Shown here piece after piece: positions 53,859 through 63,978 of a DNA stretch of 64,000 nt (its first letter is position 1; every line of letters starts with the position of its first letter). A model generated the notes under the pieces. That model was given only the letters and a program-made list of their open reading frames with translations, ran no database searches and was not told the origin of the DNA. The position numbers were made by a program, and so were the translations under genes. Source of the DNA: Falsiroseomonas bella (GTDB lineage Bacteria > Pseudomonadota > Alphaproteobacteria > Acetobacterales > Acetobacteraceae); contig NZ_QGNA01000001.1 of the NCBI RefSeq assembly GCF_003173615.1, positions 248,001 through 312,000 on the forward strand. Direction: 5' to 3'.

Positions 53859-53969
53859 ACGCGTCCCGCACCCTGCGTCAAGCGTCGGACGCGGCATCGC
53901 GCGACCGTGAAGCCGCTTGCACCGCGCGTGGGGCCCCAGGCTATGCTGCAGCATCCTGGGAGGAACGCC

Positions 53970-54941
53970 ATGATCCGCTCGACCCGCCGCGCCGCGCTCA
54001 CCCTGTTGGCGCTGCCGGCGATCGCCCGCGCGCAAGGCGCCTGGCCGGAGCGCGGCGTGACGATGATCGTGCCCTTCCCGCCCGGCGGCGCCACCGACAT
54101 GATCGGACGGATGGTCGCCGAAGGACTGGCGCCGCGCCTCGGTCGCCCGGTCGTGGTGGACAACAGGCCGGGGGCCGCGGCCAATATCGGCGTCGCGGCG
54201 CTCGCGCGCGCCGTGCCCGACGGCTACACCTTCGGCGTCGTCAGCCTGACGACCATGGGCATCAATCCCTGGCTGTACAAGGACCGGCTGCCCTTCGACC
54301 CCGACCGCGACTTCATGCCGCTGACCAACGGCGCGATCACGCCGAACGTGCTCGTGGTCAATCCGCGCAAGATCCCCGCGACGAACCTGGCCGAGCTTGT
54401 TGCCTGGCTGCGCGCCAATCCGGGCCGCGCGAATTACGGCGCCGGCGCGGCGGGTACCGCGATCCATGTCGCGATGGAGATGTTCCTCGCCGCCAGCGGC
54501 ACCCGCGCGACGCATGTGGCGTATCGCGGCTCGGCGCCGATGATGACAGACCTGATCGCCGGCCAAGTGGACCTCGCGGTGGACGGCGCCGCGGTCGCCT
54601 GGCCACATGTGCAGGCCGGCAGCATCCGCGCCATCGCGACCACCGGAGCGCAGCGCGCCTTCTTCGCGCCGGAGCTGCCGACGCTCCACGAGATGTTCCC
54701 CGACACCATCATCGACCCCTGGCACGGCTTCGCCCTGCCCGCAGGCGCGCCGGCGCCGGTCGCCGAGCGGCTGTCGCGAGAGATCCAGGCGGTGCTGCGC
54801 GATCCATCGATCGACCAGCGCATGCGCCAGGCGGTGATGCTGCCGGCGCCGATGCAGCCCGCGGAATTCGCCGCCTTCATCCAGGCGGAACGGCGGCGCT
54901 ACGGCCCGGTGATCGAACGCGCCGGGATCCGCGCGGACTAG
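53970..54941 (+). CDS. Bug/TctC family periplasmic binding protein
   Basis: 323 residues. Signal peptide MIRSTRRAALTLLALPAIARAQ with two arginines. Motifs: VTMIVPFPPGGATDMIGRMVAEG, VVVDNRPGAAANIGVAALARAVPDG and AYRGSAPMMTDLIAGQVDLAVDG. GGGAGGAAC precedes the ATG. It has no TctA/TctB genes nearby and is divergent from the ArsR gene across a 111-bp spacer. Its stop codon lies inside a 21-bp hairpin. Confidence 0.92.
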   Translation: MIRSTRRAALTLLALPAIARAQGAWPERGVTMIVPFPPGGATDMIGRMVAEGLAPRLGRPVVVDNRPGAAANIGVAALARAVPDGYTFGVVSLTTMGINPWLYKDRLPFDPDRDFMPLTNGAITPNVLVVNPRKIPATNLAELVAWLRANPGRANYGAGAAGTAIHVAMEMFLAASGTRATHVAYRGSAPMMTDLIAGQVDLAVDGAAVAWPHVQAGSIRAIATTGAQRAFFAPELPTLHEMFPDTIIDPWHGFALPAGAPAPVAERLSREIQAVLRDPSIDQRMRQAVMLPAPMQPAEFAAFIQAERRRYGPVIERAGIRAD

Positions 54942-54981
54942 ACCCGCCTCACCGCGTCCAGACGCGGTGAGGCGGGTCTAG
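54938..54981 (+). terminator. Perfect 21-bp hairpin overlapping the Bug stop codon
   Basis: Arms 54938-54958 and 54961-54981 are exact reverse complements (core AGACCCGCCTCACCGCGT) separated by CA, with CTCTTGTTT after it. The TAG stop (54939-54941) is part of the stem. An efficient transcription terminator; being symmetric it may also work on the opposite strand. Confidence 0.85.
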
Positions 54982-55007
54982 CTCTTGTTTGACGCGTTTT
55001 CCGAGTC

Positions 55008-55027
55008 GCCGAGCGATTCCGCTCGGC
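55008..55027 (-). terminator. Hairpin for the convergent sulfatase operon
   Basis: GCCGAGCG-ATTC-CGCTCGGC, perfect 8-bp stem, 45 bases past the stop of the last minus-strand Bug gene (stop at 55072). On the minus strand it is followed by GACTCGGAAAACG. Together with the 21-bp hairpin it separates the two convergent units. Confidence 0.5.
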
Positions 55028-55071
55028 CTGAAAGCGCTCTAGCGCCGCCCGGCGGAAACGCGGCGGGCCGG

Positions 55072-56040
55072 CTACTCCACCTTGATGCCGGCCGCCTGGA
55101 CCACCGGCGTCCAGCGCGTGATCTCTTCGCGGATGAAGGCGCTGTACTCGGCGGGGGTGCTGGCATGCACCTCGTAGCCCTGGCTGATCAGGCGCGTGCG
55201 CAGCTCCGTTCCTTCGCCCATGGTGGCGACGATGCCGGCATGCAGCTTCGCCAGGATCGCTGGATCGGTGCCCGCCGGCGCGAGGATGCCGTAGAAGCCC
55301 GAGCCGATGAGCTCCGGCATGCCCTGTTCGATGACCGTCGCGACATCGGGCAGCATCGGATGCCGCTGGCGCGAACCAATGGCGATGCCGCGCAGTCGCC
55401 CGCCCACCACATGCGCCCCGGTCGGCACCAGCGCATCGTAGAAGCCATGCACCTGGCCCGAGAGCGCATCCTGGATCGCCTGGCCGGCGCCGCGATAGGC
55501 GACCACCGTGAATCCCGGGCCGCTCTTGGCGCGCAGCACCTCCGCCATCAGATGCGTCACCGCGCCGACATTCGGCACGGCCATGTTGAAGCCCTGCGGG
55601 CTCTTGCCCGCGGCGATCACATCGGCCAGCGACCGCTCCGGCCGCGTCGGATGCACTGCCGCCAGCGCAGGGATCGAGGCGACCAGGCTCACCGGCGCGA
55701 AATCCCGGCCCACATCGTAGGGCAGCCGCATGCCGAGCGCGGTGTTCAGCGCGATGGGCGCGGCGGCGAAGAGCAGCGTGTAGCCGTCCGGCTGCGACTT
55801 CGCGACCGCATCCATGCCCGGCACGCCCGCGGCGCCGCCGCGATTCTCGATCACGAAGCTCTGGCCGAAGCGCTGCTGCAGCTGCTGCGCCAGCAGGCGT
55901 CCCACCATGTCGAGCGCCCCACCGGCAGCAACCGGCAGGACGAAGCGCACCGGCCGCGTCGGCCAGGCATCGGCGCCCTGGGCGAGCGCGGGCGTGGCGA
56001 GCGCCCCGACTGCGAGCGTGGTGAAGTGACGGCGCAGCAT
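55072..56040 (-). CDS. Bug/TctC family periplasmic binding protein (operon end)
   Basis: 322 residues. Signal peptide MLRRHFTTLAVGALATPALAQ. Motifs: VRFVLPVAAGGALDMVGRLL, FVIENRGGAAGVPGMDAVAKSQPDG and AYRGAGQAIQDALSGQVHGFYD. GGGAGG lies before the ATG. Sixth and last gene of the Bug-sulfatase operon, 25 bp after the 738-residue sulfatase. Probably feeds a Tct-type permease encoded elsewhere, since none is in the window. Confidence 0.92.
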   Translation of the reverse strand: MLRRHFTTLAVGALATPALAQGADAWPTRPVRFVLPVAAGGALDMVGRLLAQQLQQRFGQSFVIENRGGAAGVPGMDAVAKSQPDGYTLLFAAAPIALNTALGMRLPYDVGRDFAPVSLVASIPALAAVHPTRPERSLADVIAAGKSPQGFNMAVPNVGAVTHLMAEVLRAKSGPGFTVVAYRGAGQAIQDALSGQVHGFYDALVPTGAHVVGGRLRGIAIGSRQRHPMLPDVATVIEQGMPELIGSGFYGILAPAGTDPAILAKLHAGIVATMGEGTELRTRLISQGYEVHASTPAEYSAFIREEITRWTPVVQAAGIKVE

Positions 56041-56065
56041 GGCGTGTCCTCCCTGTCTTCTGCGT

Positions 56066-58282
56066 TCAGCGCGGCGCGCGTTTGCCGGGCGTGACGGTGA
56101 CGTCGCGGATGCGGCCGGAATAGGGGAAGGCGCCGTGCCGCTCGTATAGGTCCCACAGCACCGGACCGCGGCGGTCCAGCCCCACATCCAACCCTTCGAA
56201 GACGCCGTAGAACACCATGCTCGGCGCCATCGGCGTGAAGGGCACGACCTCCGCCCCGTTGATGGTGAGCCTGCCCTCGCCGCGGCGCTGGCCATGCGCG
56301 CGATACTCGAAGGCAATGGTGACATCGCCCTCCGGCATCGGCACGGAGGGCAGATCGGTGGTCTCGCCGAAGCCGTTGTAGTGGAAGTGCAGCCGCCCGC
56401 CCTCGACCCACAGCACCATGCCGCCGGTCGGATCGCCGATGGCCCACAGGATGCCCTGGTCGCCCTTGCGGCAGGAGGCGCGGACTTCGATGGCGTAGTC
56501 GCGGTCGCTGATCAGCGGGAACAGGTCGAAGCGGTGCACCGTGTCCGCGCCCGGCAGGAAGCGCCGCGGCTGGTCGGCGCGCGCGGCGAACTCCGGCGCC
56601 AGGTCGCGGAACTTGTCGAGCCGGTCGCGATTGTCCAGCGGATAGACCTGGTTCGACCAGGCCGCCGTGTCGAACGCTTCCACCAGTTCCTTCAGCTTGT
56701 CCGGTTTCTCCCGCGCAAGGTCGGTGGACTCGGAAAAATCGCGCGTCAGGTCGTGCAGCGTCCAGTTGTTCCAGTCGATCTCCGCGCCGCGCTTCTGGAT
56801 GGAGCGCGCCAGCCAGCCGTCGCGGTAATAGGCGCGGTTCGACCAGCATTCGTAGTACTGCTCGTTGCGCGGCGCGACGGCGGCGGGCTCGCGCAGCAGC
56901 GCGGCAAAGCTGCGCCCGTCCATGGCCCGCGCCGGCCGGTCATGCAAGCGCTCCAGCGGCGGCGCCGCGGCGCAATCCAGCAGCGTCGGCATGATGTCGG
57001 TGACATGCACGAATTGCTGCCGGATCGCGCCGGGGTCCGGGATGCGCCGCGGCCAGGACAGGATGAAGGAGACGCGCCTTCCGCCCGCGCCGGTGTAGGT
57101 CTTGAAGGACGGGAAGGGCGCGTTGCACATCTCGCCCCAGCCCGTGGGATACAGGCTGGCGCTACGCGGGCTGCCGAGGTCGTGCGCCGTCGCGCGCTCC
57201 ACCTCGATCGGTGGCGGGGCGAGGCCCATGTAGCGGCGGTTGTTGTTGAACATTCCCGTCGGCCCGCCGGCATCGGTCGCGCCGTTGTCGGAGGTGACGA
57301 GGATGATCGTGTTGTCGCGCTCGCCGGTCTCGTCCAGGAAGTCCAGCAGGCGGCCGATGTTCTGGTCCACGCAGTCGATCATCGCCGCGTAGCATTCCAT
57401 GTGCCGCGCCAGCATGGCGCGGTCGGCGGGATCGGTGTTCTCCCACGCGGCGACGCGCGGGTCGGAGGCCGGCAGCTTCGTGCCCGGCGGGATCAGCCCC
57501 ATCGCGATCTGGCGCCTGTGGCGCGCCGCGCGCAGCACGCTCCAGCCGATGTCGTAGCGGCCGCGGTATTTCGCGAGGTCGGCCGGCTTCGCCTGCAGGG
57601 GCGCGTGCGGCGCGTTGTTGGCGACGTAGAGGAAAAAGGGCTTCTCGGGGGAATGCGCGCGCAGGTCGGACAGCCAGCGCAGCGACTGCGTCATCCAGTC
57701 ATCCGTCGCGTAGTAGTCGCGCGGATACGCTTCCATCGGGATCACCTGGTTGCCGGCGGTCAGCGCGGTCGGGAAGAAGAAATGCGTCTCGCCTTCCAGG
57801 AAGCCGTGGAAATGGTCGAAGCCGCGCTGGCAGGGCCAGGACCGCTTGTCGCCGGCCGGCGTGCAATCCGCCGTCGGCGTGTTGTGCCACTTGCCGACCG
57901 CGCAGGTGGCGTAGCCGGACGCGCGCAGCGTCTCCGGCAAGGTGGCGCAATCCATCGGGATCTCGCCGCGATAGCCGGGATAGCCGGCGTCGTTGTTGGC
58001 GAGCCATCCCGTGCCGGCGGCATGTGCGTTGATGCCGGTCAGCAGCGCGGCCCGCGCGGGGGAGCAGATGGGATGCGTGGTGTAGTGGTTGAAGCGCAGC
58101 CCTTCCTTCGCCAGGCGATCCATGTTCGGCGTCTCGATCTCGCCGCCGAAGCAGCCGGGATCGGAGAAGCCCATGTCGTCCATCAGGATGACAACGATGT
58201 TCGGCGCGCCCTTCGGCGCATGGTGCCGCGCCGGCCATTCCGGCGTGCTTTCCTCGCGCGAGCGGCCGATATGCTGTGTCAT
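56066..58282 (-). CDS. Arylsulfatase-like sulfatase with C-terminal beta-sandwich domain
   Basis: 738 residues, no signal peptide. Metal site IVVILMDDMGFSDPG (Asp35, Asp36), formylglycine motif C73-S-P-A-R77 in HPICSPARAALLTG, CAVGKWHN, and TSDNGATDAGG. The catalytic part resembles long actinobacterial/proteobacterial arylsulfatases. Residues about 570-738 form a separate beta-rich domain (IEVRASCRKGDQGILWAIGDPTGG) of concanavalin-like type. It hydrolyses a sulfate ester, assuming the cysteine is converted by a formylglycine-generating enzyme encoded elsewhere. Overlaps the next sulfatase gene by 4 bp. Confidence 0.92.
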   Translation of the reverse strand: MTQHIGRSREESTPEWPARHHAPKGAPNIVVILMDDMGFSDPGCFGGEIETPNMDRLAKEGLRFNHYTTHPICSPARAALLTGINAHAAGTGWLANNDAGYPGYRGEIPMDCATLPETLRASGYATCAVGKWHNTPTADCTPAGDKRSWPCQRGFDHFHGFLEGETHFFFPTALTAGNQVIPMEAYPRDYYATDDWMTQSLRWLSDLRAHSPEKPFFLYVANNAPHAPLQAKPADLAKYRGRYDIGWSVLRAARHRRQIAMGLIPPGTKLPASDPRVAAWENTDPADRAMLARHMECYAAMIDCVDQNIGRLLDFLDETGERDNTIILVTSDNGATDAGGPTGMFNNNRRYMGLAPPPIEVERATAHDLGSPRSASLYPTGWGEMCNAPFPSFKTYTGAGGRRVSFILSWPRRIPDPGAIRQQFVHVTDIMPTLLDCAAAPPLERLHDRPARAMDGRSFAALLREPAAVAPRNEQYYECWSNRAYYRDGWLARSIQKRGAEIDWNNWTLHDLTRDFSESTDLAREKPDKLKELVEAFDTAAWSNQVYPLDNRDRLDKFRDLAPEFAARADQPRRFLPGADTVHRFDLFPLISDRDYAIEVRASCRKGDQGILWAIGDPTGGMVLWVEGGRLHFHYNGFGETTDLPSVPMPEGDVTIAFEYRAHGQRRGEGRLTINGAEVVPFTPMAPSMVFYGVFEGLDVGLDRRGPVLWDLYERHGAFPYSGRIRDVTVTPGKRAPR

Positions 58283-59760
58283 CCCGGTGTCCCCACAACA
58301 ACGCTGGCATCCATGATGGGCGGCGGCGGGTAGTGATGGCCGCGCTGGCCGGAGAGGCCGCGATTGACGCCGCCGCGGAATTCGCGCGCCGGCATGCCGA
58401 CCAGCCTGCCGTCCCGGATCCAGTCAAGATCCGCGCCCCAGGCGCCCTCGACCAGCGCCGCCTCCAGCCGCGCGCGAACCCCGTCGAGCTCGGGGTCGGC
58501 GCTGCGGTCATGCAGCTCGCGCGGATCCTCCTGCAGGTCGAAGAGCTGCATGACGTTGCCGCAGGGATACCAGAGCAACTTGTGCCGGCCGTCCGTCGCC
58601 ATGCGCGTCGCGTTCGCATCCTCGCGGCAGGCGCCGAGGAAGACCTCGCGGCGTGCCTGCCCCACCATCGACAGGCCCTCGACATGCGCGGGCGATTCCA
58701 CGCCGGCGAAGTCCAGCAGCGTCGGCATCACATCCGCAAGGCCGACCAGGCGCTTGTCCACGCTGCCCGGCGGCGTGCGGGCATCGCCGGCCGGCCCGAC
58801 CAGCAGCGTCGGCACGCGCGCGCTGTCCTCGTAGTAGAGCCGCTTCGCCCAGAGCCCGTGGGCGCCCAGCATGTCGCCGTGATCCGCGGTGAACAGGATC
58901 ACCGTCTCGTCCAGCAGACCTTCCTCCCGCAGCGTGCCGATCACCAGGCGAAGCTGGTGGTCGATATGGGTGCAGAGCGCCATGAAGGCCTGCATGATCT
59001 GCCGGTAGTGATGCGGCTTCACATGCGCCCAGTAGTCGCGCACCGCACGCAGCGCATAGGGCTGCGCCGTCTCCTCCTGCGCCCAGGCGCCCATCGGCGG
59101 CGGCGGCGCATCCGCGTCGCGGTAGATGTCGAGATAGGCGTTCAGCGGGATCAGCGGCGGATGCGGCGCCGTGTAGGACAGGTGCCAGAAGCCCGGCCGC
59201 GTCGGGTCGCGGCGCTTGATCTCCCGGCACATCCGCCAGGTCGTCCAGTTCGTGACGTGGCAATGCTCCGGCAGGTGCCAGGGGCGCCAGAGATAGTCGT
59301 TGTTGTTCATGCCGTGGTCGAAGCCGCGGCCCGGGAACCCCTGGTCGGCGATGTAGATGTCGTGGTCGTCCGGCCCGCCGAGATGCGGTCGCCCTTCCTC
59401 GGCCAGATGCACCTCGTCGAAGCCGATGCGGTCGCGCGGCGGATAGACATGCAGCTTGCCCACCGCCGTCGTCTGGTAGCCGGCCTCGTGCAGCAGCGCG
59501 GGCAGCGTCGGAAGGTCCGGCATGCGCAGCGCGGGGTCGAAGCTGCGGTCGCCATGCTGCTTCGCGGTGGTGCCGGTCATCATCGTGCGGCGCGCGGGGA
59601 TGCAGATCGGGCATTCGGAATAGGTGCGCGGATAGCGCACGCCGACGCGCGCCAGCTGGTCGAGCGTCGGCGTCAGGATGGTCGGGTGGCCCTCATAGCC
59701 GGCAAGCGAGGCCGGCCACTGGTCCACCGTGACGAAGAGAATGTTCGGGCGGGCAGTCAC
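58279..59760 (-). CDS. Sulfatase family protein
   Basis: 493 residues, no signal peptide. PNILFVTVDQWPASLAG (metal Asp13), formylglycine motif C53-I-P-A-R57, TTAVGKLHVYPPRDR, and FTADHGDMLGAHGLWAKRLYYEDSARVP. The Asp-Gln first motif puts it with choline-sulfatase-like or phosphonate-monoester-hydrolase-like members rather than AtsA. Cytoplasmic sulfate- or phosphonate-ester hydrolase. Overlaps the Bug gene at 59757 and the larger sulfatase gene by 4 bp each. Confidence 0.92.
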   Translation of the reverse strand: MTARPNILFVTVDQWPASLAGYEGHPTILTPTLDQLARVGVRYPRTYSECPICIPARRTMMTGTTAKQHGDRSFDPALRMPDLPTLPALLHEAGYQTTAVGKLHVYPPRDRIGFDEVHLAEEGRPHLGGPDDHDIYIADQGFPGRGFDHGMNNNDYLWRPWHLPEHCHVTNWTTWRMCREIKRRDPTRPGFWHLSYTAPHPPLIPLNAYLDIYRDADAPPPPMGAWAQEETAQPYALRAVRDYWAHVKPHHYRQIMQAFMALCTHIDHQLRLVIGTLREEGLLDETVILFTADHGDMLGAHGLWAKRLYYEDSARVPTLLVGPAGDARTPPGSVDKRLVGLADVMPTLLDFAGVESPAHVEGLSMVGQARREVFLGACREDANATRMATDGRHKLLWYPCGNVMQLFDLQEDPRELHDRSADPELDGVRARLEAALVEGAWGADLDWIRDGRLVGMPAREFRGGVNRGLSGQRGHHYPPPPIMDASVVVGTPG

Positions 59761-60710
59761 TCCACCCGCGCCCCGCTTGCCTGCACCAGCGGCCCGAACT
59801 TCTGGCGCTCCGCCTGGATCCAGCTTGCGAAGTCGGCCGCGCTGCCGCCCGCGAAGGGCAGGCCGAGCTGGCGCGCGCGCTCGATCACCGCAGGCTCGCG
59901 CAGCGCCGCGTTGAACGCGGCGTTGAGCTTCTGCACCGCATCAGCTGGCACGCCGCGCGGCGCCACCACGCCATGCCAGGATGTGAAGGCATAGCCAGGC
60001 ACCCCGCTCTCCGCGACGGTCGGCAGGTCCGGCGTGAACGGGCTGCGGCTCGCGCCCGTCACGGCGATGGCCCGCACCTGGCCCTGGTTCACCGCGGGCA
60101 GCAGCGTGCCGTCGATCAGCAGGTCGATGCGCCCCGCGATCAGCTCCTGCGCCGCGGGCGCGCTGCCCCGGAAGGGCACATGCGTCATCTTCGTCCCGCT
60201 CAGGCTCATCAGCATCTGCGTCGCGAGATGCCCCGCCGTGCCGGGGCCAGGCGTGCCGAAATTCAGCGCATCGGGCCGCGCCTTCGCCGCGGCGACGAGA
60301 TCCGCCACCGTGCGATGCGGGCTGTCCTTCGGCACGCCGACCAGCAGCGAGACCTCCGTCAGACGGATGATCGGCGCGAAGGCGTCCGGGTCGTAGGGCA
60401 GACGCGCGAAGAGGTGCGGCGCGATCGCCAGGATGCCGATATCGGCGAAGAGCAGCGTGTGGCCATCCGCCGGTGCGCGCGCCGCCGCGCCGGCGCCGAT
60501 GGTGCCGCCGCCGCCGCCGCGATTCTCGATCACCAGCGGCTGACCGATCTCCTTTTCCACGGTCGGCGCGAGAAGCCGCGCCATGATGTCGTTGTTGCCG
60601 CCGGGCGGATAGGGGACGATCACCGTCACTGGCTTCTCCGGCCAGGCGGCGCGCGCGATTCCCGGCGCGGCCAGCGCCGCCGCGACAAGCCCGAATGTCC
60701 TGCGTCGCAT
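59757..60710 (-). CDS. Bug/TctC family periplasmic binding protein
   Basis: 317 residues. Signal peptide MRRRTFGLVAAALAAPGIARA. Motifs: VTVIVPYPPGGNNDIMARLLAP, LVIENRGGGGGTIGAGAAARAPADG and FRGSAPAAQELIAGRIDLLIDG. The loop NNDI and the five-glycine stretch make it distinct from the other Bug proteins here. Third gene of the sulfatase operon, 11 bp after a sulfatase and overlapping the next by 4 bp. Confidence 0.92.
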   Translation of the reverse strand: MRRRTFGLVAAALAAPGIARAAWPEKPVTVIVPYPPGGNNDIMARLLAPTVEKEIGQPLVIENRGGGGGTIGAGAAARAPADGHTLLFADIGILAIAPHLFARLPYDPDAFAPIIRLTEVSLLVGVPKDSPHRTVADLVAAAKARPDALNFGTPGPGTAGHLATQMLMSLSGTKMTHVPFRGSAPAAQELIAGRIDLLIDGTLLPAVNQGQVRAIAVTGASRSPFTPDLPTVAESGVPGYAFTSWHGVVAPRGVPADAVQKLNAAFNAALREPAVIERARQLGLPFAGGSAADFASWIQAERQKFGPLVQASGARVE

Positions 60711-60721
60711 CCGCACTCTCC

Positions 60722-62191
60722 TCAATACAGGGCGCTGCGCGGCGGGCCCGCGCTGATCGTCGCGGCCAGCGCGTCCAGATGCGCCTTCAGCCTGTCCGCC
60801 CGCAGCGCGGCGTCGTCCCACAGATTGTCGAACTCGCCGGGATCGCTGGCGTGGTCGAAGATCTCGCCCTTCGCGTGCCCATGATAGACCACCGACTTCC
60901 AGCGCCCGTCGAACACCATGGAGCCGTGGCTGTGGTCCGAGTGACCGCCGATGCTGTCCTTGAACTCGCAGACGACATGCGCCTTGTGGACATGCGGGTC
61001 GGCGCGGCCTTCCAGAATCGGCAGAAGCGAGCGGCCCTGCATCTGCCAGGGCACCGCGATGCCGGCGGCCTCCAGCAGCGTCGGCGCGATGTCCACGAGC
61101 TCCACCAGCGCGTCGCTCTCAAGCCCCGCCTGCACGCGGCCGGGCCAGCGCCACAGCATCGGCACATGCACAAGCCCTTCGAAGAACCGGCAGCCCTTCA
61201 GCACAAGGCCGTGGTCGCCGAGCAATTCGCCATGATCCGAGTGGAACAGGACCAGCGTGTCCTCCTCCTGCCCGCTGTCGCGCAGCGCTGCCAGGATGCG
61301 CGCGACCTGGACGTCCAGGTGCTCGATCATGGCGTAGTAGTTGGCCTTCACCTGCAACGCGTCGTAATCCTCGGGCACATGCGACGCCACCTTGTCGTGG
61401 TCGCGTTCCTTCGGCGGCGGGGCCGGCGCGGCATTGCGGCGGATGGTGGGGTCCACCGGCTTCTTCTGCTGCTGGTCAACCCCCTCGAAGTCGCGCCAGC
61501 GCTCGGCGTCCGAAGGGCGCCACAGCGGCAGCGGCAGCGTCGCCGCATCCACCCGCGCCAGCGCCTCCGGCGGCGCATCAAAGGGTGCGTGCGGGTCGAA
61601 GAAATTCAGCGAGAGGCACCAGGGCCCGTCGCGGCGATCGGTGATGAACCGGATCGCCATCTCGGCGCACCAGGTGGATTGGTGGTACTCCGCAGGCACG
61701 CCTGCGCCGACGAAGGCGCCCTTGTCGCGATACAGCGCCTGCGGGTCCACCTTCTTCTCGTGCCGCAGCCAGTGCTCATAGGCATCGCCACGCGCGGCAT
61801 CCGGCGTGGGGTGGTGGTTCCAGTGGAACACGCGGTAGCCGTCGTCGGTGCGCTTCTCATGGTGCTTCGCGGCGGAGAGATGCAGCTTGCCGACCAGCCC
61901 GCAATCATAGCCGTGGTCGGCCAGGATGCGCGTGACCAGCACCTCGTTCGGCGGGAAGAAGGCGTTGCCGTTGCGGTAGACGTGGTGGCTCGCCGGGTAG
62001 CGTCCCGTGAGCATGCTCGCGCGCGACGGTGTGCAGATTGGCGACTGCGTGTAGGCACGGCGGAACGCCGTGCCGCGCTCGGCCAGCCCGTCCTGCGCCG
62101 GCGTGCGGATATGCGGATTGCCGAGGCGGCGGATCGTGTCCCAGCGCTGCTGATCGGTGCAGATCCAGAGGATGTTCGGGCGTTTGCTCAC
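60722..62191 (-). CDS. Sulfatase family protein
   Basis: 489 residues, no signal peptide. PNILWICTDQQRWDTI (metal Asp13), formylglycine motif C53-T-P-S-R57, CGLVGKLHLSAAKH, and FHSDHGELLGDHGLVLKGCRFFEG. An extra linker KKPVDPTIRRNAAPAPPPKERDHD lies before the second half. GTG start at 62191 overlapping the upstream Bug stop (GTGA), so it is translated in coupling with that gene. A long frame upstream is only the shadow of the Bug gene. Confidence 0.92.
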   Translation of the reverse strand: MSKRPNILWICTDQQRWDTIRRLGNPHIRTPAQDGLAERGTAFRRAYTQSPICTPSRASMLTGRYPASHHVYRNGNAFFPPNEVLVTRILADHGYDCGLVGKLHLSAAKHHEKRTDDGYRVFHWNHHPTPDAARGDAYEHWLRHEKKVDPQALYRDKGAFVGAGVPAEYHQSTWCAEMAIRFITDRRDGPWCLSLNFFDPHAPFDAPPEALARVDAATLPLPLWRPSDAERWRDFEGVDQQQKKPVDPTIRRNAAPAPPPKERDHDKVASHVPEDYDALQVKANYYAMIEHLDVQVARILAALRDSGQEEDTLVLFHSDHGELLGDHGLVLKGCRFFEGLVHVPMLWRWPGRVQAGLESDALVELVDIAPTLLEAAGIAVPWQMQGRSLLPILEGRADPHVHKAHVVCEFKDSIGGHSDHSHGSMVFDGRWKSVVYHGHAKGEIFDHASDPGEFDNLWDDAALRADRLKAHLDALAATISAGPPRSALY

Positions 62192-63192
62192 TCGATGCGG
62201 ATCCCCGCGGCGCGCACCGCCTCGGCCCATTGCTTGCGCTGGTCGGCAATCAGCGCGCCGAAGGATTCCGCTGTTCCCGGCGCGGCGCTCGCTCCCATCT
62301 CGCCCAGGCGTCCCGTCACCTCCGGCATCGCGAGCACCGCGTTGATCTCGGTGTTCAGGCGCTGGACGATCGCATCCGGCACGCCAGCGGGCGCCGTCAG
62401 CCCGAACCAGCCGGGTGTCGAGAAGCCGGCGAGCCCCGCCTCGTCCGCCGTCGGCACCTCCGGCCAGGCGGAGATGCGCGGCGTGCCGGCGACCATCAGC
62501 GGCCGCACGCGCCCGGCCTGCACCTGCCCCGCGGCTTCCAGCGGGCTTGCGATCATCGCCTGCACGCGGCCGGCGGCGAGGTCCGCTACGGCGGGCCCGC
62601 CGCCGCGATAGGGCACATGCACCAGGTCGATGCCGGCGCGCAGCTTCAACAGTTCGAACGCGACATGCGGCAGCGAACCGTTGCCCGGCGAGGCGTAGTT
62701 GAGCTGCCCCGGCCGCGACTTCGCCAGCGCGACGAACTCCGCGAAGTTCTGCGCCGGCACTTCGCTGCTGACCATCAGCGCGTTCGGGCTGAGCACGAGC
62801 AGCGCGACGGGCCGGAAGTCGCGCTCGGAATTGAAGGGCAGGTTGGCGTAGGCGAAGGGGATGATGGCGAAGGGCGGCGGCGTCAGCAGCAGCGTGTAGC
62901 CATCCGGCGCGCTGCGCGCGACTTCCGTGGTGCCGATGACGGTGGCGGCACCGGGCTTGTTGTCCACCACGACCGTGCGGCCGAGCCGCGTGCCCAGGTG
63001 GTTGGCAACCAGCCGCGCGGAGACATCGGAGGAGCCGCCGGGCGCAAAGGGAACCACGATGCGGATGTTGCGCGCGGGCCACTCGCCCTGCGCCTGGACC
63101 GCCGCAGGCAGGGCCAGCGCGCCCGCCGTGCCGAGCAGCAGCGCGCGACGGCCGGGCCGCGCCAAGGCGGCCCCGTGATGGCGTTCGGACAT
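62188..63192 (-). CDS. Bug/TctC family periplasmic binding protein (operon head)
   Basis: 334 residues. Signal peptide with GRRALLLGTAGALALPAAVQAQ. Motifs: IRIVVPFAPGGSSDVSARLVANH, VVVDNKPGAATVIGTTEVARSAPDG and VPYRGGGPAVADLAAGRVQAMI. GGGGGAGGAAGGG directly before the ATG gives a very strong ribosome site, as expected for a protein needed in excess. First gene of the six-gene Bug-sulfatase operon, divergent from the GntR regulator. Confidence 0.93.
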   Translation of the reverse strand: MSERHHGAALARPGRRALLLGTAGALALPAAVQAQGEWPARNIRIVVPFAPGGSSDVSARLVANHLGTRLGRTVVVDNKPGAATVIGTTEVARSAPDGYTLLLTPPPFAIIPFAYANLPFNSERDFRPVALLVLSPNALMVSSEVPAQNFAEFVALAKSRPGQLNYASPGNGSLPHVAFELLKLRAGIDLVHVPYRGGGPAVADLAAGRVQAMIASPLEAAGQVQAGRVRPLMVAGTPRISAWPEVPTADEAGLAGFSTPGWFGLTAPAGVPDAIVQRLNTEINAVLAMPEVTGRLGEMGASAAPGTAESFGALIADQRKQWAEAVRAAGIRIE

Positions 63193-63227
63193 CCCTTCCT
63201 CCCCCGGTTCCGTGGCAAAGTGGCCTG

Positions 63228-63247
63228 ACCAGTTGAAGGATGCTGGT
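63228..63247. promoter_or_regulatory. Candidate GntR/FadR operator
   Basis: ACCAG-N10-CTGGT inverted repeat in the 93-bp divergent spacer, 36 bp from the Bug start and 39 bp before the regulator start. Overlapping it is a wider pair GTTGA (63232-63236) and TCAAC (63266-63270). The exact register of binding is not determined by sequence. Confidence 0.45.
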
Positions 63248-63285
63248 CCGGGTGCCAAACACCTGTCAACCAGCGAAGCCACCGC

Positions 63286-63978
63286 ATGCCCTTCGAACCC
63301 ATCGAGCCGCGGCGCCTGTTCCGCCGTATCGCCGAGCAGATCGCGGCGATGATCGCCCGCGGCGACCTGCCGCCCGGCAGCCGCCTGCCCGCGGAACGCG
63401 AACTGGCGCAGCGCCTCAACGTCAGCCGGCCATCGGTGCGGGAGGCGCTGATCGCGCTCGAGATCGCGGGCCTCGTCGAGGTGCGCGGCGGCTCGGGCGT
63501 CTATGTCCGCAACGGCGCGCCGGAACCCGTGGCGCAACCCGCCGATGCGCCCGGGCCCTTCGACGTGCTGGAAGCGCGCATGGTGGTGGAGCCCGAATGC
63601 GCCGCCCGCGCCGCGCGGGCCGAGCCGGCGGCGCGCGCCGCCGTCGCCGAGGCCTTCGGCCGCATGGCCGCCGCGCGCCGCGCCGGCCGGCCGGACGAGG
63701 ACAGCGACCGCGCCTTCCACCTCGCCATCGCGGAAGCCGCGGGGAACACCGCGCTCGCGCGCATCGTCGGCGGGCTGTGGCGCGACCAGACGGCGCCGCT
63801 GGCGAGCCGCCTGACCGACCTCGCCGTGTCGCCGGCACGGCGGCGCGACAACCTGGCGGAGCACGCGGCCATCGCTACGGCGATCGTGGCTGGCGATGCC
63901 GCCGCGGCGCGCGCCGCGATGCGCCGCCACCTCTCGGCCGTGCGCCGCGCGCGGCTCCAGGGCCTGGAAGGCGCATAG
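63286..63978 (+). CDS. GntR family transcriptional regulator, FadR/FCD subgroup
   Basis: 230 residues. N-terminal winged helix RIAEQIAAMIARGDLPPGSRLPAERELAQRLNVSRPSVREALIALEIAGLVEVRGGSGVYV, and an alpha-helical FCD effector domain with the metal-ligand pattern in DSDRAFHLAIAEAAGN and EHAAIATAIVAGD ... MRRHL. FCD domains sense small organic acids. Divergent from the Bug-sulfatase operon; probably its repressor or activator. The ATG has no strong Shine-Dalgarno. Confidence 0.92.
   Translation: MPFEPIEPRRLFRRIAEQIAAMIARGDLPPGSRLPAERELAQRLNVSRPSVREALIALEIAGLVEVRGGSGVYVRNGAPEPVAQPADAPGPFDVLEARMVVEPECAARAARAEPAARAAVAEAFGRMAAARRAGRPDEDSDRAFHLAIAEAAGNTALARIVGGLWRDQTAPLASRLTDLAVSPARRRDNLAEHAAIATAIVAGDAAAARAAMRRHLSAVRRARLQGLEGA

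Follow-up and report, generated by a model that had tools for sequence, protein, structure and literature searches.

Why would a bacterium string three periplasmic binding proteins and three sulfatases into one operon that carries no permease? The question arises from a locus of Falsiroseomonas bella (Acetobacteraceae; assembly GCF_003173615.1), which we analysed within a 64,000-nucleotide stretch of contig NZ_QGNA01000001.1 (positions 248,001 to 312,000; this whole stretch is the window). Six genes, all on the minus strand, read 5' to 3' as Bug3-S3-Bug2-S2-S1-Bug1 (open reading frames and Pfam), where Bug1 to Bug3 belong to the TctC family, the binding proteins of tripartite tricarboxylate transporters (TTT), and S1 to S3 are sulfatases. 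Neighbouring genes overlap by 4 bp at three junctions (Bug3/S3, GTGA; Bug2/S2, GTGA; S2/S1, ATGA) and are separated by gaps of 11 bp (S3/Bug2) and 25 bp (S1/Bug1) at the remaining two, and a GntR regulator of the FCD type is encoded divergently; in all these respects the first-pass annotation of the locus was accurate. We report that, by sequence comparison, Bug2-S2 is an old and widespread pair, and we consider it reasonably likely that the operon stacks Bug-sulfatase modules predicted to work by TTT-type uptake followed by cytosolic hydrolysis by formylglycine sulfatases.

Bug2 and S2 recur together beyond the genus

The genome (5.9 Mb) holds 125 matches to TctC, 17 to TctA, 16 to sulfatases and four to the formylglycine-generating enzyme (FGE) domain, and with so many TctC matches a single Bug-sulfatase adjacency is cheap. 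Four of the 13 sulfatases outside the cluster had a Bug domain within 1300 bp, against 5.2% expected (binomial, 0.004), and three of the 13 had one within 700 bp (0.005) or 1000 bp (0.013); these binomials are only indicative, because the distances were picked with the data in view (one of the gaps measures 1293 bp). Much stronger evidence than such in-genome distance statistics comes from the gene order kept in relatives.

A scan for relatives of S2 (58279..59760, minus strand), the gene that follows Bug2 (59757..60710, minus strand), returned 75 loci, of which 71 were kept at an identity of at least 48% (L154, L156 and L157 fell below 48% to S2, and no S2 gene was called in L155); the genes around them were called by our own script and grouped in BLAST clusters, with Pfam names given to representatives only. 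A Bug gene was the immediate neighbour of the S2 relative, on either strand, in 42 of the 71 loci and lay within four genes in 45, while TctA lay within four genes in 26; by gene clusters, the transporter type within four genes was TTT in 47, ABC in 11, MFS in 2 and none of these in 11. The commonest layout was a divergent LysR gene followed by Bug-S2-TctB-TctA (families by Pfam on representatives), found in Rhizobium, Pseudorhizobium, Martelella, Salipiger, Psychromarinibacter, Jannaschia and Halomonas. Where a Bug gene stood upstream of S2 (n=24), TctA was present within four genes in 13 loci, as S2-TctB-TctA in 12 of them, and the 11 loci with no TctA in that range comprised six of Roseomonas type, three of Bosea and one each of Methylobacterium and Aureimonas. 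In Bordetella, Achromobacter, Polaromonas and Advenella the order was S2 then Bug, with no TctA within four genes.

We placed 113 Bug proteins in a quick tree (43 from the window genome, 29 from the same loci that did not adjoin S2, 38 neighbours of S2, and Bug1 to Bug3), omitting those called shorter than 250 aa, including the ones beside S2 in L117, L119, L093, L103 and L109. Bug2 and 28 S2-adjacent Bugs from Alpha-, Beta- and Gammaproteobacteria grouped in a single clade (SH-aLRT 99) that excluded the remaining 84. This clade took in 28 of 33 same-strand neighbours of S2, comprising all 22 tested of the 24 upstream Bugs and 6 of 11 downstream ones. In a mirror-tree comparison of these 28 pairs plus the window pair, Bug and sulfatase distances were correlated (r=0.86, reached in 0 of 2000 permutations), to which shared species history contributes, and 18 of 26 splits were common to the Bug and S2 trees. 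The comparison ran on pairs chosen by the Bug tree, because Bugs outside the clade were excluded. Other S2 lineages adjoin ABC, MFS or another TTT.

Several loci carried further genes. In L113 and L138, a divergent LysR gene comes after Bug-S2-TctB-TctA, and beyond it lies a second set, sulfatase-Bug-TctB-TctA, so runs of Bug/sulfatase pairs also occur outside the genus. A TauE/SafE-family gene comes soon after Bug-S2-TctB-TctA in L117 (by Pfam), L129 and L132 (both by clustering), and a contig of a Thermomicrobiales metagenome-assembled genome (L120) has four further sulfatase genes and a gene of the FGE cluster upstream of its S2 relative.

Pairs persist within the genus

The first-pass annotation had named a search for the gene order in other Acetobacteraceae as a check, and had suggested that each binding protein might be matched to one enzyme. 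Across 15 genomes of the genus, including that of the window, S3 occurred in 7 (E<=1e-50) and S2 in 6 (E<=1e-60), and a core in which the FCD gene is divergent from Bug3-S3-Bug2-S2 was present in 5, the window's included. S1 at more than 90% identity was found in only 2 of the 15, and S1-Bug1 followed the core only in the window and one relative; a gene 91% identical to Bug1 adjoins S1 in one other genome of the genus. We therefore rejected conservation of the full six-gene order (2/15 genomes), whereas the four-gene core held in four other genomes. Falsiroseomonas selenitidurans and Roseomonas oleicola are culturable relatives that carry the core.

Among the candidates scored, the best Bug2 match adjoined S2 in 5/5 other S2-bearing genomes of the genus, and the best Bug3 match adjoined S3 in 6/6 other S3-bearing ones (99-282 Bug candidates per genome, at most 150 scored for Bug2 and 144 for Bug3); within the same scope, one genome alone among those without S2 had a Bug2 match at E<=1e-75 (G257, 44%). 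In one genome Bug3-S3 and Bug2-S2-Bug are split between two loci (L012, L035), with the FCD orthologue not beside them, and in another (L011) the FCD gene and Bug3-S3 have a different sulfatase (30% to S3) next in line. The pair persists, and the string of six genes does not. One-to-one pairing fared well for Bug2-S2 and, within the genus, for Bug3-S3, but S1-Bug1 is weakly supported.

Outside the genus, none of the 397 other phylum genomes sampled yielded S3 at E<=1e-70 (at most 3 candidates scored per listed genome), and at E<=1e-80 among 249 genomes of the family it was seen only in the same genus, in 5/249 including the window's (at most 6 candidates scored per listed genome).

Other arrangements stand beside these. 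In L011 (611-10197), FCD/Bug3-S3 is surrounded by two additional sulfatase genes, 24% and 30% identical to S3, and by as many additional Bugs; one sulfatase and one Bug lie upstream. Two further S1-like sulfatases, at L018:10359-12767 (31% identical to S1) and L079:2436-4703 (38%), each have a same-strand Bug after them whose best match in the window is not Bug1, and to the right of the FCD gene in L010 (12050-16994) M28, M20 and M28 family peptidase genes lie in a row.

A permease probably encoded elsewhere

No permease gene lies inside the window operon, as had been pointed out in the first-pass annotation, and with neither TctA nor TctB present the operon does not encode a complete TTT; the absence is, however, a trait of the window lineage and some others and not of the module. 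Because TctA lies within four genes of the pair in 13 of the 24 Bug-upstream relatives, the missing permease probably reflects local loss or an arrangement in trans.

The TctAs of S2 operons formed one clade (SH-aLRT 98) with two types of TctA from the genus, named here after their contigs as C8-type and C14-type; the C8 protein (at 485 kb) is 60% identical to the TctA of Rhizobium sp. LCM 4573, and the C14 protein 57%. The C8 gene (L187:6106-7602; G000:C8:485105-486574) stands alone, with no TctC within 15 kb, and adjoins an ffh-like gene (by eye); small ORFs lie upstream of it. Its setting is similar in three other genomes of the genus (L199, L200, L202), with no Bug in the stretch, which makes it a natural candidate for a permease shared by orphan Bugs. 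Such sharing has been proposed before (passages of PMC5994714 and PMC4996985), and the binding protein TphC and its permease TpiBA are encoded in separate operons (as given in part of PMC8556258). At another locus (L196), a TctA gene (called at 654 aa) sits beside two genes that match our Bug profile but were missing from the list of PF03401 matches for the genome.

The encoded proteins and their likely substrates

All three enzymes carry the formylglycine maturation motif C-x-P-x-R. S3 (60722..62191, minus strand; 489 aa; PF00884, 3.5e-47) has C53-T-P-S-R57, K102-x-H104 and D319-H320; S2 (493 aa; PF00884, 3.9e-42) has C53-I-P-A-R57, K102-x-H104 and D293-H294; and S1 (56066..58282, minus strand; 738 aa; PF00884, 8.8e-58), akin to Pseudomonas arylsulfatase and extended at the C-terminus, has C73-S-P-A-R77, K131-x-H133 and D332-N333. 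We take C-x-P-x-R, K-x-H and the D-N or D-H metal site to have their customary roles, and in an alignment of 28 S2 proteins the motif residues were invariant save position 56. By eye, neither S2 nor S3 has a signal peptide, since both open directly with the first strand of their catalytic domain; S1 starts about 25 residues ahead of that strand with no hydrophobic stretch.

Matches in the PDB were 7all (3e-86) and 1hdh (4e-77) for S1, both of the Pseudomonas arylsulfatase kind, and 7oz8, deposited as a choline-sulfatase, was best for S3 (1.5e-49) and for S2; S2 and S3 also matched the phosphonate monoester hydrolases 2w8s and 4upk. The choline-sulfatase model TIGR03417 has a cut-off of 433 bits, and S2 (193), S3 (173) and S1 (88) did not reach it; S1 to S3 likewise scored below the curated NCBIfam cut-offs for choline-sulfatase, PehA and arylsulfatase (PRK13759). 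Since S2 and S3 lie under the cut-offs of all NCBIfam sulfatase models listed, family membership assigns no substrate, and hydrolysis of sulfate esters by S1 to S3 is a predicted activity. The means of activation appear to be at hand: three of the four FGE (PF03781) matches above cut-off in the genome have an E of 1.8e-80 or lower, and an FGE gene lies directly downstream of S2 in three core loci that have no S1-Bug1, and also in Aureimonas.

Bug3 (62188..63192, minus strand; 334 aa; PF03401, 3.3e-72), Bug2 (317 aa; 1.5e-61) and Bug1 (55072..56040, minus strand; 322 aa; 2.4e-49) match PF03401 over nearly their whole length (profile 2-273 of 274; the queries for Bug1 and Bug2 included a few additional upstream residues), and their N-termini look signal-like by eye, with signal peptides seen in Bug3 and Bug1. 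The AlphaFold model of Bug2 (pLDDT 92) confirmed the Bug fold (TM 0.88/0.93 and rmsd 1.8 against 5oei), and its nearest solved structures are AdpC and the terephthalate binding protein.

Which esters might be handled is suggested by genes near the S2 relatives. In Acuticoccus and others these include a split galactarate/altronate-type dehydratase, an MR_MLE enzyme and a TIM-barrel glycosidase-like protein; a galactonate-type MFS carrier is encoded near S2 at two further loci. The split dehydratase, we assume, could also be a related sulfolactate lyase. L090:9464-10849 and six homologues (L092, L109, L111, L127, L141, L158) lie near S2, have no Pfam match and are in most cases accompanied by an MR_MLE gene, and for a model of this family (built on 7 sequences; pLDDT 77) the only matches were to TIM-barrel glycosidase-like and similar folds, the first at TM 0.49/0.61. 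These neighbours and the FCD regulator modestly favour O-sulfated organic acids, perhaps sugar or hydroxy acids, as the substrate class; for the window itself the argument stays modest because the sugar-acid-type neighbours sit in other branches of S2. The ligands known for Bugs are for the most part carboxylates, and SlcHFG imports an organosulfur acid, sulfolactate (PMC5812351 and PMC8556258, in part).

Regulator, promoter and operon ends

The regulator gene (63286..63978, plus strand) is divergent from the operon and encodes both a GntR helix-turn-helix (2.5e-22) and an FCD domain (1.4e-23), which places it among the FCD-type GntR regulators. It is also divergent from Bug3 in five other genomes of the genus, at 73-81% identity and 90% in the nearest relative. 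A scan for consensus promoters at the operon start found nothing, and the promoter we propose comes from comparison of the six FCD loci, which share an intergenic block of TTGACA, 18 bp, CAGCAT, 5 bp and a palindrome near AACTGGTCAGGCCACTT. On the minus strand of the window, the -35-like hexamer TTGACA (63264..63269) is unchanged in 6/6 loci, as is its spacing to the palindrome, and the -10-like hexamer CAGCAT (63240..63245), 18 bp downstream, is likewise identical in 6/6, being a weak match to a sigma-70 -10 element.

The imperfect palindrome AAGTGGCCTGACCAGTT (63218..63234), conserved between the genes in 6/6 FCD loci, is a candidate operator for the FCD regulator. In G152 and G095 its ends deviate by between one and a few bases, and a large part of the remaining FCD-Bug3 intergenic region differs between subgroups. 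There is no second copy in the window at up to three mismatches (0.04 expected), and among 204 loci the palindrome core, with one base left open, occurred solely in 20 loci that cover the six FCD places. The palindrome resembles what we take to be TGGTnnnACCA-type sites of FCD regulators, and a repressor site near the transcription start would be its simplest reading. The tight overlaps and the conserved promoter/operator-like block suggest that the six genes are read as one transcript.

A perfect 20-bp inverted repeat (54938..54981) sits 90 bp beyond the last stop, in the stretch that separates the operon from a convergent Bug gene, and is a possible terminator. Because its T-rich tail was scored on the plus strand only, what it shows for the operon is a hairpin, and a scan of 54900-63400 for terminator-like sites on the minus strand found none. 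The convergent gene (53943-54941) is a fourth Bug, 40% identical to Bug3.

Discussion

In the mechanism that we propose, each Bug would catch one O-sulfated organic acid in the periplasm and pass it to a TctA/TctB-type membrane permease encoded elsewhere, for which the stand-alone TctA (G000:C8:485 kb) and a TctCBA set on C14 are candidates. FGE would activate the partner sulfatase, which would then split the ester in the cytosol into sulfate and a hydroxy acid used for growth. The FCD regulator would probably repress the operon from the palindrome just downstream of the promoter, until binding of an organic acid, either substrate or product, lifts the repression. Import followed by intracellular hydrolysis, which the first-pass annotation had anticipated, fits because the sulfatases appear to be without signal peptides and the Bugs with them (by eye), and because TTT genes lie beside the pair in many relatives. 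We also entertain, more tentatively and with some doubt, that Bug-sulfatase cassettes are plug-in specificity units which share one generic TctA from a separate conserved site, and that the window operon has collected three.

Several observations weigh against this account. Five of the 11 downstream Bugs (L095, L116, L127, the second Bug of L145, and L158) and all five divergent ones fall outside the Bug2 clade, and neither group entered the mirror-tree test. The S2 proteins paired with the Bug2 clade did not form a single clade, in a test that labelled loci with a short-called S2-neighbouring Bug as 'other' and so inflated the count of changes. The S2 lineages with the dehydratase, MR_MLE and TIM-barrel neighbours carry, where one is present and in the tree, a TTT binding protein that is not of the Bug2 clade, and the window operon has no downstream catabolic enzyme that could reveal the product. 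In G231 the Bug2 match beside S2 is 48% identical, only just ahead of additional Bugs in G256 and G152, which reach 47%. Support for the Bug3-S3 pairing comes from a single genus, because the other phylum genomes sampled gave no S3 at E<=1e-70 among the candidates scored, and within S3 pairs the Bug changes much more rapidly than its sulfatase; G231 and G095 are closest on S3 (89%) yet only 62% identical on Bug3. This fast divergence and mismatch hint at exchange of Bugs. Finally, the idea of a TctA specific to the S2-bearing genomes was rejected, a TctA 56-60% identical to the S2-linked one of Rhizobium being present in 15/15 genomes of the genus, whether or not they have S2.

Could the interleaving be fortuitous, with abundant Bugs falling beside anything and no functional link within the pairs? 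The 125 Bugs in 5.9 Mb lend this some colour, but the S2-specific Bug clade, the mirror trees and the 5/5 and 6/6 adjacency of best matches in other genomes make it extremely improbable; we rejected it for Bug2-S2 and Bug3-S3, with Bug1-S1 excepted. Hydrolases of phosphonates or phosphate esters from the alkaline-phosphatase superfamily, an option that the first-pass annotation had left beside sulfate esters, would explain why S2 and S3 match 2w8s and 4upk and carry D-H at the metal site, and phosphonate-type hydrolases also use formylglycine. In phosphonate monoester hydrolases, however, the sulfatase K-x-H pair is replaced, and here it is intact in S1, S2 and S3 and invariant across the 28 S2 proteins; S2 and S3 have their best PDB match in an entry deposited under the name choline-sulfatase, and FGE beside S2 in relatives fits sulfatases. 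We consider that option very unlikely.

Two further alternatives keep the sulfatases and change what the operon is for. The Bugs might be sensors that report external sulfate esters to a signalling system, the enzymes being fed by another importer; a genome with just 17 TctA for 125 TctC leaves room for this, and a TTT binding protein signals in Bordetella (passages of PMC5994714 and PMC4996985). Against it, the conserved core consists of the regulator, Bugs and sulfatases with no two-component genes, and TctA accompanies more than half of the Bug-upstream relatives (13/24), so we regard a sensory role as quite unlikely. Alternatively, the same uptake and hydrolysis could serve mainly to obtain sulfur from arylsulfates, like the Pseudomonas ats genes, in keeping with the presence of sulfatases and importer genes and with S1 being closest to Pseudomonas arylsulfatase-type entries. 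The regulator, however, is of FCD type here and often LysR in relatives; FCD regulators usually sense carboxylates, and this points to carbon use. The core, moreover, has no sulfur-assimilation gene. Scavenging of this kind is, we think, unlikely. Uptake by TTT and cytosolic cleavage remain our preferred explanation.

The general kind of system, a binding protein and a catabolic enzyme with the permease in trans, is already known. Pseudomonas ats genes combine one sulfatase with an importer of sulfate esters, as here, but that importer is an ABC system and the enzyme is single. The formylglycine sulfatases 1hdh (Pseudomonas arylsulfatase), 7oz8 and 6fny (choline-sulfatases) share sequence matches and C-x-P-x-R with S1 to S3. 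Characterised TTT systems (TphC/TpiBA, AdpC, SlcHFG) resemble the window operon in their TctC/Bug proteins and, for TphC/TpiBA, in a permease from a separate operon; unlike them, the window operon has a sulfatase partner, a predicted sulfate-ester ligand, three Bugs and no permease. Arylmalonate decarboxylase genes stand with a complete TTT in Alphaproteobacteria and with orphan Bugs in Betaproteobacteria, with MR_MLE neighbours (PMC4996985), but the enzyme there is a decarboxylase and not a sulfatase, and the portion of that paper at hand describes no repeated pairs. In Vibrio sp. C42 a TTT imports alginate oligosaccharides, which are sugar-acid compounds, for cytosolic enzymes (excerpts of PMC13390454), which are lyases where ours are sulfatases, and no word beginning with 'sulfat' occurs in the main text of that paper. 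Among the matches listed from the open-licence literature, none described a TTT-sulfatase pair by title or abstract; the relevant passages of PMC7029141, PMC6383258, PMC6277516 and PMC10838667 name sulfatase and TTT in unrelated places. As far as we have seen, what appears new is that the partner is a sulfatase, that pairs are repeated and that Bug2 and S2 are broadly co-inherited.

These results suggest a TTT uptake route for organic sulfates, which we did not find in the literature searched. Because the same pair occurs with and without a co-operonic permease, and the genome holds a lone TctA of the same clade, permease sharing by orphan Bugs becomes directly testable. For the majority of Bugs neither a ligand nor a local permease is known, and for the majority of sulfatases no substrate; with one Bug clade linked to a single sulfatase family in Alpha-, Beta- and Gammaproteobacteria alike, each partner would predict the ligand of the other.

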